From the NCBI RefSeq assembly GCF_007860015.1, contig NZ_SJPS01000003.1, forward strand, positions 124,001-188,000: a stretch of DNA of 64,000 nt, given 5' to 3'. Positions 3,094 to 64,000 of the stretch are shown piece after piece (within the stretch, counting starts at the first letter, position 1; each line of letters begins with the position of its first letter). The notes beneath the pieces were generated by a model. It had not been told where the DNA came from, made no database searches, and saw only the letters and a program-made list of their open reading frames with translations. Source of the stretch: Bythopirellula polymerisocia (GTDB lineage: Bacteria > Planctomycetota > Planctomycetia > Pirellulales > Lacipirellulaceae). Both the position numbers and the translations under genes were made by a program.

Positions 3094-4644
3094 ATGTCCT
3101 CGCATTCTTCACTTATCGAGTCCTCGGCTACCGCGCAGCTTGAGCTACTCATGCGAGGTGATCTCTTTTCGGTCGAACTCACTCAGGCTTATCTCGATTC
3201 GATTGCGTCACGAGATGCGAACGTGGGGGCCTTTCTGCGTGTGGAGAAGGACAGAGCACTTGCTCAGGCAGCATCCGTCGATAAGCGGCGGCAGTCAAAT
3301 AAACCACTTGGCAAATTAGCTGGACTTCCCGTAGCTGTGAAGGATGTGCTCTGCGACCAGGACACGATCACAACCTGCGCCTCGCGAATGCTAGAAAATT
3401 TCCGCGCTCCCTATGATTCCACTGTTGTTGCCAAGCTCAAAGCAGCTGATGCCATTTTGATTGGCCGCACAAACATGGACGAGTTTGCCATGGGAGGATC
3501 GACCGAGAACTCTGCGTTTCAGATCACACGTAATCCTTGGGACTTGGAGCGAGCTCCTGGAGGATCGAGCGGTGGGGCGGCAGCCTGTGTGGCAGCAGAC
3601 ATGGCTCCGCTGTCGATCGGCACTGACACGGGAGGTTCGATTCGTCAACCAGCAGGTCTCTGTGGTGTGGTGGGACTCAAGCCAACCTATGGCCGGGTTA
3701 GTCGCTTTGGGCTGGTGGCGTTTGCCAGTAGCCTCGATCAAGTAGGCCCGCTTGCGCGTACTTCCCAAGATGCAGCACTACTACTGGAAACAATCGCAGG
3801 CCACGATTTGCGGGATGCCACTTCGCTCGACCGGCCAGTCCCTGCCTACTCCCAGTCCGTTGCCGAGCCACTTGCCGGGGTGCGAATCGGACTAGTGCGT
3901 GAACATTTTGCCGAAGGGCTCGACTCAGAAGTCGCGTCGGCCGTCCGCGACGCGGTTGCGGTCTATGAATCCCTTGGAGCAACCGTTAAGGAAATCTCAT
4001 TGCCTCATAGCAAACACGCTGTGGCAACCTACTATGTAATAGCTCCTTGTGAGGCATCCAGCAATCTGGCCCGCTACGATGGCGTTCATTATGGCCACCG
4101 CACTGACGAGGCAGAGATGCTGGAAGAGCTCGCTGCGGAACGCAAGGCATTGGAGGCCGCCAAGGATGAGGTCGGCCTCTCACGATTGGATTCCTCGTTG
4201 GTCCGCATGTACAGAAAGTCTCGCAGCGAAGGTTTCGGTGCGGAAGTGAAACGCCGCATCATGCTCGGAACTTACGCCCTGAGTGCCGGGTATTACGATG
4301 CGTATTACTTGAAGGCATTGAAAGTCCGACGCTTGATTCGTCAGGATTTTGACGAGGCATTCCGTGAAGTGGACCTGATCGCCGGCCCCGTTACCGCTCA
4401 AACTGCCTTCAAAATCGGTGAAATGGTCGACGATCCGCTCTCAATGTATCTTGTCGACCTATACACGGTCAGCGCCAATCTAGCAGGCATCCCCGGGATC
4501 AGCCTACCCTGTGGATTCGACAAATCAGGCTTGCCGATCGGTTTGCAGTTATTGGCGCCTCCTCTGGAGGAAGAACGCTTACTTCGTGGCGCCCATATGT
4601 ACGAACAAGCTACCGACTGGCATCAACGTAGACCCGAGATCTAA
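3094..4644 (+). CDS. gatA: Aspartyl/glutamyl-tRNA amidotransferase subunit A
   Basis: This 516-residue amidase-signature enzyme releases ammonia from glutamine for GatB. The catalytic Lys-cisSer-Ser triad can be placed at K83 (PVAVKD), S158 (GGSSGG, residues 156-161) and S182 (GTDTGGSIRQP). The spacing is identical to well-studied GatA proteins. The C-terminal half keeps the GLPIGLQLLAPP substrate-pocket segment. Length is slightly above the usual 480-490 owing to loops. It sits between gatC and gatB, with 31 bp to the gatB start used here. No defects are seen. Confidence 0.96.
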   Translation: MSSHSSLIESSATAQLELLMRGDLFSVELTQAYLDSIASRDANVGAFLRVEKDRALAQAASVDKRRQSNKPLGKLAGLPVAVKDVLCDQDTITTCASRMLENFRAPYDSTVVAKLKAADAILIGRTNMDEFAMGGSTENSAFQITRNPWDLERAPGGSSGGAAACVAADMAPLSIGTDTGGSIRQPAGLCGVVGLKPTYGRVSRFGLVAFASSLDQVGPLARTSQDAALLLETIAGHDLRDATSLDRPVPAYSQSVAEPLAGVRIGLVREHFAEGLDSEVASAVRDAVAVYESLGATVKEISLPHSKHAVATYYVIAPCEASSNLARYDGVHYGHRTDEAEMLEELAAERKALEAAKDEVGLSRLDSSLVRMYRKSRSEGFGAEVKRRIMLGTYALSAGYYDAYYLKALKVRRLIRQDFDEAFREVDLIAGPVTAQTAFKIGEMVDDPLSMYLVDLYTVSANLAGIPGISLPCGFDKSGLPIGLQLLAPPLEEERLLRGAHMYEQATDWHQRRPEI

Positions 4645-60173: not shown

Positions 60174-60881
60174 TCACTTACATTTCCGGCTTACTTGTGA
60201 AATATTTCGCTCAAGCCAACCTATCAGCATAAGCTGCTCGGGCGATGGCTTGCTGATGGCAAGCATTTCTTTTTTGAGCGTGATGAGATCTTCCGCTGTA
60301 TCGACATCAGTGAGGCTTGCGATCTCTTTGAGTTGTCCTGAGGAGCGGAGACTTTGTGCCAAGCTTTCGGCGGCAGTTGCCGTGCTGTACGGAATCTTAG
60401 TCCAAGTTTGTTTTGCTAAATGAGAATTGGATCCAACTAGGTAGAAACCCCCGTCATAGCAGCGGCCCAGTACATGAGAGTAGATACCGCGGCTATTGAG
60501 CAGCACTTGAAGTGTGCTTTCCAAGAGTGCAGGTGTGATTTGAGGAGAGTCAGCTCCAATGCCGATCACGGCGGCATGTTGCGATTGTAACTCGTTGAAT
60601 ACCTTGTGCAGGCGATCACCCAAGCCACCACTTCCTTGGGGGATTCTTGAGAATTCTTGCCAGCGCGGATCATAGAGGCCGGCTTCCTCCGCCACTGCCC
60701 AGTAGGGAGTAGTACCCGTCGAATCTGCCACGGTGGCGACTGCAGCTGAAATCGCTGCGACCGAGAGTCGATAGAACTCTGCACTGGAATCTCTCCCGAT
60801 GCCTACGGACAACCTTGTCTTGATCGGTGAAAGACCTGGCGTCTTCACAAAGATTGCGATAGATGCATTCTGACAAGTCAT
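60174..60881 (-). CDS. TIGR04282-family (arsenosugar-type) glycosyltransferase
   Basis: This 235-residue protein matches the DUF2064/rSAM-associated transferase 1 group. It starts MTCQNASIAIFVKTPGLSPIKTRL, typical of cofC-like nucleotidyl/glycosyl transferases. GSGGLGDRLHKVF, GADSPQITPALL and GRCYDGGFYLVG are its diagnostic stretches. I chose the internal ATG at 60881 because it overlaps the upstream stop as ATGA. A start at 60896 would overlap by 19 bases. The neighbouring TIGR04283-type transferase and divergent ArsS indicate arsenosugar or a related selenodomain-associated pathway. Confidence 0.85.
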   Translation of the reverse strand: MTCQNASIAIFVKTPGLSPIKTRLSVGIGRDSSAEFYRLSVAAISAAVATVADSTGTTPYWAVAEEAGLYDPRWQEFSRIPQGSGGLGDRLHKVFNELQSQHAAVIGIGADSPQITPALLESTLQVLLNSRGIYSHVLGRCYDGGFYLVGSNSHLAKQTWTKIPYSTATAAESLAQSLRSSGQLKEIASLTDVDTAEDLITLKKEMLAISKPSPEQLMLIGWLERNISQVSRKCK

Positions 60882-61636
60882 CGAAATCGACTCCACAGTA
60901 GCGCAACTAACTCAGGAAATGCTTGTTTCCACGTCCGCCAGGTATGAATCGCAGTCGTTTGCAGCCAACCCTGGGAGCGATATTTACGAGCGCTGGTCAA
61001 GAGGGTTGCTGCTACTGCTCGCAAGGGAATTCGTAGTCGATGGGCTTTCCAGACCAGCAGATGATCTTCGCCGTACGGGGCATTTTCAGGAAAACCGCAG
61101 AGACGGTCGAATATCGCACGGCTCATGCAGAAACCTTGGTCGCCGAAGGGAAGTTTCAACCAGTGCGATCTTAGCCAGACTCCCCAGGCATTCAACTTTG
61201 TAGCAGGTGGCCCATCGGTTTGAAATTTCAAATCAAAGTAGTGGACTGCGCCCGGTTCCTCATGGAGTGCCCTGCCGAGTGCCTCAAGGACATCACTAGA
61301 TAGTTGGCTATCAGCATGCAAAAACCAGAGGTATTCCCGTTGGGCGAGTTGGGCACCAGCATTCATTTGCTGAGCACGTCCGCGATCTGCAGATATCCAT
61401 TGAGTTTTGCACGGAATGTTGAGCTGGTAAATGAAATTCGCGAACTCTTTCGGTTCGACTTCTGAAGCAACAAGCAGTACTTCTGTATCGTCGGGGAATC
61501 GAGTAAAACTCTCCAAGAGTTTCTTCCATGCGCAATCACCCGGTCCCACAGGGACCACGACTGAAAGGCGAGCGAGTGTGACAAATTGTCCTTGCTCATA
61601 AATTAGTTTACTTGGTGGCGTGAGAAGATCTGACAT
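60878..61636 (-). CDS. TIGR04283-family (arsenosugar-type) glycosyltransferase
   Basis: This 252-residue GT-A-fold family 2 glycosyltransferase contains LARLSVVVPVG with the first strand at about residue 24. It is a divergent member whose N-terminus carries an extra 20 residues. Family marks are SADRGRAQQMNAGAQLAQREYLWFLHADSQL (the D-x-D-like HAD) and the region PFGDQGFCMSRAIFDRLCGFPENAPYGEDHLL. It is translationally coupled to the TIGR04282 gene. Together they are predicted to build the sugar part of arsenosugars, but direct substrate evidence is absent. Confidence 0.85.
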   Translation of the reverse strand: MSDLLTPPSKLIYEQGQFVTLARLSVVVPVGPGDCAWKKLLESFTRFPDDTEVLLVASEVEPKEFANFIYQLNIPCKTQWISADRGRAQQMNAGAQLAQREYLWFLHADSQLSSDVLEALGRALHEEPGAVHYFDLKFQTDGPPATKLNAWGVWLRSHWLKLPFGDQGFCMSRAIFDRLCGFPENAPYGEDHLLVWKAHRLRIPLRAVAATLLTSARKYRSQGWLQTTAIHTWRTWKQAFPELVALLWSRFR

Positions 61637-62176
61637 TGGAAAGGATGAAACTCCCTGGATACTAGGCGTTAGACTATTTCGTAAATATTGCGGGAACTGT
61701 CGTCCATTTCACGGAGATTGGCAGCTTTCTGAAGTAAAATGAAAGCTAAACTATTTTTACTTGCCTTGCTCTGCGCCTATTGGCAAGTCTCTCATCTACC
61801 CTTTCAATTGCCGTGCCGTCAGTGACCTGCAGTAGAACCCCCAGCAACAAAGTATCTGGAGAAGAGGCTTCCGTCCATGAGCACTATGCGAATGTGGCAA
61901 TGCATAAAGTAGTGACCCCTTGTCATTCGTTAGACAATTCGGCAGACTTCTTGCCAGTAAGATCTGAAGAAATTCTTGAGCAGGTAGACAGTTTTGGCAA
62001 CTCCAAACTCTACATGCATGAACGTAGAGCCATGGTCGATTTCTTGAGGCAAAAAATTGGCGCGGCATCGCTTTCATGGAGACAGGGAGCCTTGTCCTAT
62101 TAGACTTGTTCGTTGTCTGCTGTCATTTGCGTGATCGATTCATTGAAGGAGCGTCATTATCACTCAACTTACCCTA
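61637..62176. other. Divergent spacer between the glycosyltransferases and arsS
   Basis: This 540-base region separates the minus-strand transferases from arsS. Apart from the doubtful frame above it contains AAGGAG at 62146-62151, which is the best ribosome-binding site for arsS. No clear operator resembling an ArsR site was found. Confidence 0.45.
61780..62103 (+). CDS. Possible small protein between the transferases and arsS (doubtful)
   Basis: A 107-codon frame with a TTG start lies here. The later part (SEEILEQVDSFGNSKLYMHERRAMVDFLRQKIG) looks protein-like, but the start is weak. A different-frame ATG at 61739 gives MKAKLFLLALLCAYWQVSH, a good signal peptide that hits a stop after 28 codons. 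The two halves could be one exported protein broken by a frameshift, or chance. I list it with low confidence. Confidence 0.25.
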   Translation: MASLSSTLSIAVPSVTCSRTPSNKVSGEEASVHEHYANVAMHKVVTPCHSLDNSADFLPVRSEEILEQVDSFGNSKLYMHERRAMVDFLRQKIGAASLSWRQGALSY

Positions 62177-63208
62177 TTGCGGCAGCATAGTCCGTTGGCT
62201 GATGCTTCTCAGCAGGTTACGATTCTTGAATCGAGCGAGAATCCGGCGTTGCCGAGGTTTGATGCCACTATGAATGCCCATGGTCTTGATCCTCTCGAAT
62301 CCGACGGCATTGATGTGCTGCAAGTCAACGTCGGCAAGCTCTGCAACCAAACGTGTCGCCATTGCCATGTTGATGCAGGTCCCGATCGCCGGGAAAGTAT
62401 GTCCAGGGAAACAGCCGAGGCGATAATCCGCGTGCTGAGCGAGAGCACGATCGGCATACTCGACATCACAGGTGGGGCGCCAGAGATGAACCCGAATTTC
62501 CGTTGGCTGGTCGAGCAGGCCCGGCAACTGGGACGGCACGTCATCGATCGCTGTAATCTCACAATCCTGGTCACGAAGGGGTATGAAACCTTGCCTGGGT
62601 TTTTGGCGGAACACCAGGTGGAAGTCGTCGCCTCCCTTCCTTGTTACTCGGAGGAGAATTGCGACAGCCAGCGTGGCGATGGAGTTTTCCAGAAATCGAT
62701 CCAAGCCCTACGCCAGCTCAACGAACTGGGGTACGGTCAACCCAATGGTACCCTTTCACTTGCATTGGTGTATAACCCCGTCGGGCCATCGCTGCCGCCT
62801 TCACAAGCGCAGCTAGAAGCCGACTATCGCCGTGAATTACGCGAGCAATACGATCTGCAATTTTCCAAACTATACACAATCACGAACCTGCCAATTAGTC
62901 GGTTTCTCGACGATCTCTTGCAGACAGGCCAATACGCATCCTACATGCAGACACTAGTCGAATCTTTTAATCCTCAGGCTGCTGCGGGCGTGATGTGCCG
63001 TTCCATGCTTTCGGTGGATTGGCAGGGGAGACTCTACGACTGCGATTTCAACCAGATGCTGGAATTGCCGCTCACTTCTGAAACAGCGAAAACGATTTTC
63101 GATCTCGACCTCGCTGTACTTGCCAAGCGACGCATAGTCACGGGCAGACACTGCTTTGGTTGCACGGCAGGTGCTGGTTCAGGGTGTCAGGGAAGCTTCG
63201 TTTCTTAG
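62177..63208 (+). CDS. arsS: Arsenosugar biosynthesis radical SAM protein ArsS
   Basis: This radical SAM enzyme binds its [4Fe-4S] cluster through CNQTCRHCHVDAGP, the CxxxCxxC motif with the ArsS-specific tail. ArsS converts dimethylarsinate and SAM to the 5'-deoxyadenosyl arsenical of arsenosugars. ITGGAPEMN, NLTILVTKGYETLPGFLA and the C-terminal cysteine-rich HCFGCTAGAGSGCQG (DUF3641) agree. From the TTG at 62177 it is 343 residues. Homology to the expected TLL-R-SPLAD opening seems to begin seven codons earlier, at ATT 62156 or ATC 62159, after an AAGGAG at 62146-62151, but no ATG/GTG/TTG is available there. The true start is therefore uncertain. Confidence 0.88.
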   Translation: MRQHSPLADASQQVTILESSENPALPRFDATMNAHGLDPLESDGIDVLQVNVGKLCNQTCRHCHVDAGPDRRESMSRETAEAIIRVLSESTIGILDITGGAPEMNPNFRWLVEQARQLGRHVIDRCNLTILVTKGYETLPGFLAEHQVEVVASLPCYSEENCDSQRGDGVFQKSIQALRQLNELGYGQPNGTLSLALVYNPVGPSLPPSQAQLEADYRRELREQYDLQFSKLYTITNLPISRFLDDLLQTGQYASYMQTLVESFNPQAAAGVMCRSMLSVDWQGRLYDCDFNQMLELPLTSETAKTIFDLDLAVLAKRRIVTGRHCFGCTAGAGSGCQGSFVS

Positions 63209-63628: not shown

Positions 63629-63668
63629 CAAAAAAGAAACCCGGCCACCACTCAAGGGTGACCGGGTT
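63629..63668 (-). terminator. Intrinsic terminator of the candidate RNA
   Basis: On the minus strand AACCCGGTCACC (63657-63668) pairs with GGTGGCCGGGTT (63638-63649) over 12 positions with a single mismatch and a seven-base loop. It is followed by TTTCTTTTTT. This is the clearest Rho-independent terminator in the window. Confidence 0.75.
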
Positions 63669-63914
63669 CATAGTTTTTGCTTAGAGAACAGGCCGAATTT
63701 CTATAGGAAACAAGGCGGGCACTCACAAGCAGGTGGTGGCTGCCTCCGTTAGACAACCCGCCGGCGGTCAACGGTTTGCACCACCCCACTGGCCTATATA
63801 ATAGTCGTTCAAAAAACCACCTCCTTTCTCACAAGTTTGCGGCGGCCGAATGTCGCTGCCAGAGGACACCCGGCGGCCAGATAGGGCCCGTCGTGCTGCG
63901 GTCGCACGACCCAT
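63629..63914 (-). ncRNA. Candidate structured RNA with a 14-codon ORF
   Basis: A minus-strand transcript of about 286 bases is bounded by promoter-like boxes and an intrinsic terminator. Near its 5' end are a GTCGTGC/GCACGAC hairpin and a long stem in 63839-63880, whose core CCGGGTGTC pairs with GACATTCGG. AAGGAGGT (63819-63826) then precedes a TTG-start ORF at 63768-63812 encoding NDYYIGQWGGANR after the initiator. A further fold joins GGTGGTGC and GCCACCACC around CCGTT...AACGG. I do not recognise RNase P, tmRNA, SRP RNA, 6S or a known riboswitch core. Confidence 0.45.
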
Positions 63915-63920
63915 AGCTGC

Positions 63921-63947
63921 ATTATAATCACGATTCCCGCCCGTCAA
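63921..63947 (-). promoter_or_regulatory. Sigma-70-like promoter of the candidate RNA
   Basis: On the minus strand TATAAT (63921-63926) follows TTGACG (63942-63947). The boxes are near consensus, but the spacer is 15 bases, two shorter than ideal. The predicted start is near 63914. It points away from the window edge into the structured RNA. Confidence 0.55.
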
Positions 63948-64000
63948 GCAATATCAGTTGGCAAGATCGTTTTCCGAAGTCGGCACTTTGCTGCCTCGCA

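Follow-up and report, generated by a model that had tools for sequence, protein, structure and literature searches.

What is encoded by a stretch of about 285 nucleotides that carries hairpins, a very strong Shine-Dalgarno (SD) sequence, a reading frame of only 14 codons and a terminator, with no protein gene behind it? The stretch lies on the minus strand, from about 63914 to 63630, of the window, by which we mean the whole 64,000 nucleotides analysed (C3:124001-188000 in the 6.14-Mb genome of Bythopirellula polymerisocia). The original prediction had read in it two 5' hairpins, an SD, a 14-codon ORF, a second fold and a terminator, and indeed all of these were found in that order on the minus strand (Table 1), the second fold at 63785-63722. 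The fold of the predicted transcript is more stable than those of 200 out of 200 dinucleotide shuffles (z -3.6). The observation that no protein gene follows was also borne out, as there is no same-strand gene downstream of the element at the window locus and the next gene past the terminator, arsS (62177-63208), lies on the plus strand, convergent with the RNA gene. The product of this arsenosugar biosynthesis gene matches the ArsS radical SAM protein family TIGR04167 with 461.9 bits (62177-63205, plus strand), and the arsenosugar region (60177-63205) further contains, on the minus strand, glycosyltransferases resembling TIGR04283 and TIGR04282, both barely below cut-off.

Table 1 Features of the predicted RNA gene, in window coordinates.
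Feature	Position	Strand	Sequence or description	Basis
Candidate -35 region	63942..63951	-	TTGCTTGACG	TTGACG at 63947-63942; TTGC at 63951-63948 recurs in relatives
-10 box	63921..63926	-	TATAAT	Read in the sequence; conserved in own-family alignment
Predicted transcript	63630..63914	-	About 285 nt	-10 box and terminator
Hairpin H1	63890..63910	-	GUCGUGC / GCACGAC, ACCGC in the loop, where most relatives have ACGC	28-sequence alignment
Hairpin H2	63846..63873	-	Loop CUGGCAG	Fold and alignment
Shine-Dalgarno	63816..63829	-	AGAAAGGAGGUGGU	14 contiguous pairs possible with own 16S tail
Mini-ORF	63768..63812	-	TTG...TGA, MNDYYIGQWGGANR and stop; 14 codons plus stop	Mini-ORF in 65 of 65 copies
P1, 5' strand	63774..63785	-	GGUGGUGC..., in the 3' half of the ORF	Pairs with 3' strand in MFE fold
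P2, hairpin over the stop codon	63752..63769	-	GRCG loop (ACCGCC GGCG GGUUGU)	Pair count test
H3, alternative to P2	63738..63759	-	GGGUUGUCU with AGGCAGCC	Covariation
C-rich 3' strand, partner of P1 or SD	63731..63743	-	GCAGCCACCACCU	Covariation and MFE fold
H4	63679..63730	-	GCUUGUGAG with CUCUAAGC	Covariation
Intrinsic terminator	63630..63669	-	Stem 63669-63637 and T tract	Terminator scan; stem covaries in own-family alignment

Conservation is decisive for whether the element is real. It was matched by blastn in 35 of 59 relatives, and a covariance model of its core, a search that the original prediction had proposed, detected it in 111 of the 296 genomes of the order, so we regard it as real; 110 of these 111 genomes carry a single copy. 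Phylum-wide, a second and broader covariance model gave matches in 49 of 392 genomes, and the weak matches outside the class, where read, share the element's architecture. Moreover, a DNA pattern scanned phylum-wide matched 38 genomes, compared with one for the reversed control pattern. The mini-ORF was present in 22 of the 27 listed pattern matches, the remaining five having no stop, as expected inside longer genes. The pattern matches L279-L283 were rejected as copies of the element, since they lack a stop codon and look like the interiors of protein genes.

The predicted promoter fared unevenly. TATAAT is conserved in relatives, but the -35 box is uncertain because its candidates lie 15 or 19 nt from the -10 box, and the TTGACG/TATAAT pair was left unlisted by the promoter scanner because its 15-nt spacing falls outside the scanner's range of 16-18 nt. 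At the 3' end, the single sequence yielded one terminator in 2.5 kb against 2.7 expected, a count that is not above chance. The flanking gene families are common mostly to genomes of the organism's own family, and other families have different neighbours. Because the neighbours vary from family to family, the element is not a gene leader, and the proposal of a leader-type regulator found no support in an RNA with its own terminator and no gene behind it. Taken together, comparative analysis supports a stand-alone RNA gene with its own predicted -10 box, a conserved mini-ORF and a terminator. Regarding the flanks themselves, a protein of about 150 aa followed by an isocitrate/isopropylmalate-dehydrogenase-like gene (names assigned by eye) lies downstream on the same strand in several own-family genomes (L102-L121), and in one planctomycete genome ARAGORN called a tRNA-Pyl, possibly falsely, directly behind the element (L022, 1778-1871, minus strand).

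The mini-ORF was found in all 65 copies that had been picked by the model regardless of coding. Counted from the first G of GGAGGT, its start always follows at a distance of 10-14 nt, and its stop lies ahead of the GRCG hairpin loop. Under a strict definition, which allows a distance of 11 or 12 nt between the G of GGAGGT and the start, the ORF was present in 171 of 180 real copies and in 2.6% of shuffles, the copies being a set preselected for having the ORF (183 distinct copies minus three actinobacterial ones). The 183 distinct ORF-bearing copies start with GTG (116), TTG (56) or ATG (11), stop with TGA (73), TAG (64) or TAA (46), and have lengths of 10-18 codons. The exact peptide, NDYYIGQWGGANR here, varies among copies, and what is kept is the start, the frame, the length, the stop and a loose consensus M..C..QRGG.. 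ahead of the stop. As the synonymous share of changed codons (30%) is only slightly above that of random single-base changes (22%) and the frame is kept throughout, the peptide is weakly constrained and the frame strongly. That the mini-ORF is translated is probably of greater importance than what it encodes. At the level of comparative sequence analysis, these data show a single-copy, independent, structured unit under selection for the start, frame and stop of its mini-ORF.

The fold around the mini-ORF is conserved too. Covariation in homologues, named as a check by the original prediction, was present in H1, H3, H4, P1, P2 and a contact between the H2 loop and the ORF. Among 28 aligned copies, 100% of the cells of H1 pair and five of its six counted pairs change on both sides, H3 has both sides changed in 5 of 8 pairs, and H4 has 90.2% of cells paired with both sides changed in 3 of 8 pairs. 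The CUGGC of the H2 loop is complementary to GCCAG in the ORF, with 98.6% of cells paired and compensation by UUGGC/GCCAA in the same 28 copies; when the partner strands were shifted by 1-3 columns, pairing was lost. P1 and P2 were tested on 102 divergent copies, by permutation and pair tests that ignore kinship on a set thinned for similarity alone. The ORF 3' half fits the downstream region of its own copy better than those of other copies (z -6.6, with 0 of 10,000 permutations as good), while the ORF 5' half, as a negative control, gave a z of -0.2. P1 is kept despite full turnover of its sequence, reading GGGUUGCG/CGCAACCC in one copy (L263) and GGCCGCUGAC/GUCAGCGGCC in another (L268). For P2, 606 of 714 possible pairs were formed, and the best of 5,000 permutations reached 571. 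The C-rich strand GCAGCCACCACCU may choose between P1 and the SD as partners.

The SD core AAAGGAGGTGGT (63827-63816, minus strand) belongs to a segment of unusual strength. The organism's own 16S rRNA ends in ...GGCTGGATCACCTCCTTTCT / ...GGATCACCTCCTTTCT, with which AGAAAGGAGGUGGU can form 14 contiguous pairs, 13 of them Watson-Crick and one G-U, and many relatives carry either AAAGGAGGUGAUC or the complete AAAGGAGGUGAUCC. When up to one mismatch is allowed, AAAGGAGGTG occurs once in the window, namely in the element, against 4.4 expected occurrences, a hint that the rest of the window avoids very strong SDs. On energetic grounds an anti-SD further downstream could plausibly sequester the SD (-15.1 kcal/mol versus -13.5 kcal/mol for shuffles). 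As a covarying helix, SD/anti-SD gave no clear covariation (own versus foreign partner z -1.5), and for this reason it is something we infer, despite its appeal by eye in several families.

Is this RNA already known under another name? No Rfam family reaches its curated cut-off at the element, in line with the original prediction, whose comparison by eye had fitted it to no common RNA family, and tmRNA (RF00023), SRP, 6S, RNase P and the other Rfam RNAs were rejected as identities on the same grounds, the ordinary tmRNA of this genome being located elsewhere (C1:725593-725951). A scan of five element loci with ARAGORN likewise gave no tmRNA. The literature on planctomycete structured RNAs yielded nothing relevant, so the claim that the RNA is not yet described stands for planctomycetes within the literature and Rfam searched, yet it is qualified by a weak tie to an annotated family, Ms_IGR-5 (RF02471), an uncharacterised actinobacterial sRNA. 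RF02471 aligned end-to-end with the window element (model 1-184 of 184) at 15.3 bits (E 0.24), far short of its gathering score of 45 bits. This cut-off was reached by none of 392 planctomycete genomes, the best score being 42.7 bits (G427/L303). L303, whose mini-ORF reads MICNLVICEVMAS and stop, and L305 are intermediates among the planctomycetes. Conversely, a planctomycete-tuned pattern scanned over one genome per species in 84,980 species matched actinobacterial loci, six of which are Ms_IGR-5 by Rfam (54-106 bits), and the reverse planctomycete model R3 matched a Nocardioides locus (L167) with an E of 4e-5, the SD part being counted in the score.

The resemblance lies in the layout. Both are stand-alone sRNA genes with AAGGAGGUGRUCC and a 3' terminator, and the window SD with its mini-ORF is laid out like RF02471, in which AAGGAGGUGRU precedes an ORF of about 12 codons, as it also does in the six Rfam-confirmed actinobacterial loci. 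The 12-codon mini-ORF reads MIDLWTCEVAAR and stop in the Rfam consensus, MSTTRTREVAAR and stop in Streptacidiphilus (L205) and MISYRTCEVARR and stop in Brachybacterium (L127). GAGGUGG inside the window ORF is complementary to the C-rich downstream segment (GGGGUGGU with ACCACC), and in Ms_IGR-5 GAGGUGGY also lies inside the ORF, where a 9-bp helix could join the ORF 3' half to downstream GCAGUCACC. The Ms_IGR-5 structure in Rfam leaves GGUGgCugC of the mini-ORF and GcAGuCACC downstream unpaired, with 9 bp possible between them (RF02471 consensus; L205, L226). Such pairing can form in some Ms_IGR-5 loci, but since the duplex energy of P1, computed for actinobacterial loci one at a time, was no better than that of shuffles, P1 is no more than a possibility in Ms_IGR-5. 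The shared GAGGUGG is read in another frame in Ms_IGR-5 (REVA versus RGG), which argues that the RNA rather than the peptide has been kept. In contrast, H1 and H2 before the SD, which the Rfam model lacks, and the GRCG hairpin P2 are found in the planctomycete form alone, and its sequence similarity stays under the curated cut-off. Given the shared layout and the intermediates on one hand and the scores below cut-off on the other, we grouped the planctomycete RNA with the Ms_IGR-5 kind, outside RF02471 itself. Homologs of Ms_IGR-5 are transcribed in S. lividans (PMC8079986) and S. avermitilis (PMC8780764) and, in M. abscessus and M. smegmatis, are covered by reads protected by ribosomes, although many ncRNAs were ribosome-protected in that study and the protected reads need not mean translation (PMC4974804). 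Our search for Ms_IGR-5 peptides returned noise alone.

Other RNAs share some traits with the element. CC2171 (RF01867), a Caulobacter sRNA, shares GAAAGGAGGUGAUCCAGUG and a terminal hairpin, and its model gave weak matches to 8 of the element's 13 distant planctomycete copies (L259, L261, L263-L265, L267, L268 and L271; best E 6e-5). However, the best score was 37.2 bits against a gathering score of 75 bits, the similarity was confined to the two ends, and no early stop was seen in the consensus frame of CC2171. We claim no homology to CC2171, as the match depends on the 16S complement and the terminator, two features that could have arisen independently. Dual-function sRNAs such as VcdRP (PMC8672173) and SgrS likewise combine a small ORF with a presumed regulatory RNA part, but the VcdRP ORF has 29 codons (PMC8672173) against 10-18 in the planctomycete RNA, whose ORF itself belongs to the conserved fold. 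tmRNA is also a stable RNA with a short reading frame, whereas the planctomycete RNA has no tRNA-like part and has its own SD and a start-to-stop ORF. In addition, a Candidatus Sumerlaeota MAG (L141, around 3262-3345, minus strand) reads AGAAAGGAGGTGATCC followed by MTDGIHSEVAET and stop, and from this similarity the layout may extend to a further phylum. Tentatively, and at well below an even chance, the planctomycete RNA, Ms_IGR-5 and perhaps CC2171 could all belong to a single ancient class of stand-alone bacterial RNAs, of which each would form a branch. Such RNAs would dock ribosomes by means of an ORF of 10-16 codons and a nearly complete complement of the 16S tail, and would act as cellular sensors of free or initiating ribosomes.

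How might such an RNA work? To the explanation that we prefer we assign an even chance: the RNA would be either the branch of Ms_IGR-5 in planctomycetes or its close counterpart in structure, standing alone and having its fold switched by ribosomes that translate the mini-ORF. A free 30S subunit would dock at the SD segment, translation of the 10-16 codons would open P1 and the contact between the H2 loop and the ORF, and the ribosome at the stop codon would cover P2 and favour H3. The C-rich segment would swap partner between the ORF and the SD, or become exposed. Such a ribosome-operated switch, including its transcription, its translation and an output in trans, is proposed from sequence evidence. 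For the output in trans and the targets of the planctomycete RNA we offer a guess: the output would be coupled to ribosome availability, most simply by the exposed C-rich segment pairing with G-rich mRNA start sites.

Such pairing is also what a classical trans-acting sRNA would do, with the mini-ORF loading ribosomes that protect or time the RNA, or encoding a second activity in a dual-function RNA. The stand-alone, terminator-ended, structured gene and the complementarity of its C-rich segment to G-rich start sites agree with this account, which we nevertheless consider unlikely, since the ORF is present in every copy, its 3' half lies within the conserved fold and no conserved single-stranded seed was found beyond short loops. 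Rather improbable is an RNA that titrates or stores 30S subunits, binding free ones through its near-perfect complement of the 16S tail and allowing their release by way of the mini-ORF: the 14-nt complementarity exceeds ordinary SDs, strong SDs are otherwise missing from the window and the gene is single-copy and phylum-wide, but a titrator would need neither a frame kept through indels, with three types of stop codon, nor the covariation of P1.

If the gene encoded a micro-peptide with a function of its own (M..C..QRGG.. and stop), its mRNA merely being well structured, this would explain the slight excess of synonymous changes and the loose consensus, which has Cys and R/Q-G-G in different orders; the weak constraint on residues and the different peptides in other classes and in Actinobacteria make it quite improbable. 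The mini-ORF, the alternative helices P2/H3 and the terminator do resemble the parts of a leader-peptide attenuator that would control the gene behind it, but with nothing downstream on the strand here and with neighbours varying between families, we judge this very unlikely. Pure chance is refuted because the helices covary, and a chance arrangement or a diverged housekeeping RNA (tmRNA, 6S, SRP or RNase P) is hardly credible for a conserved element without an Rfam match at cut-off in a genome that has its tmRNA elsewhere.

A single-copy RNA gene kept over a large part of the phylum is a candidate housekeeping RNA. The element links planctomycetes to an actinobacterial sRNA that is annotated yet unexplained, and the planctomycete copies add what Ms_IGR-5 had lacked, namely a reading frame that is conserved and forms part of a covarying fold. 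If docking and translation of the mini-ORF drive the fold, as the preferred ribosome-operated switch supposes, this RNA would be a direct read-out of translation capacity, and the use of ribosome-docking RNAs by bacteria now becomes testable.
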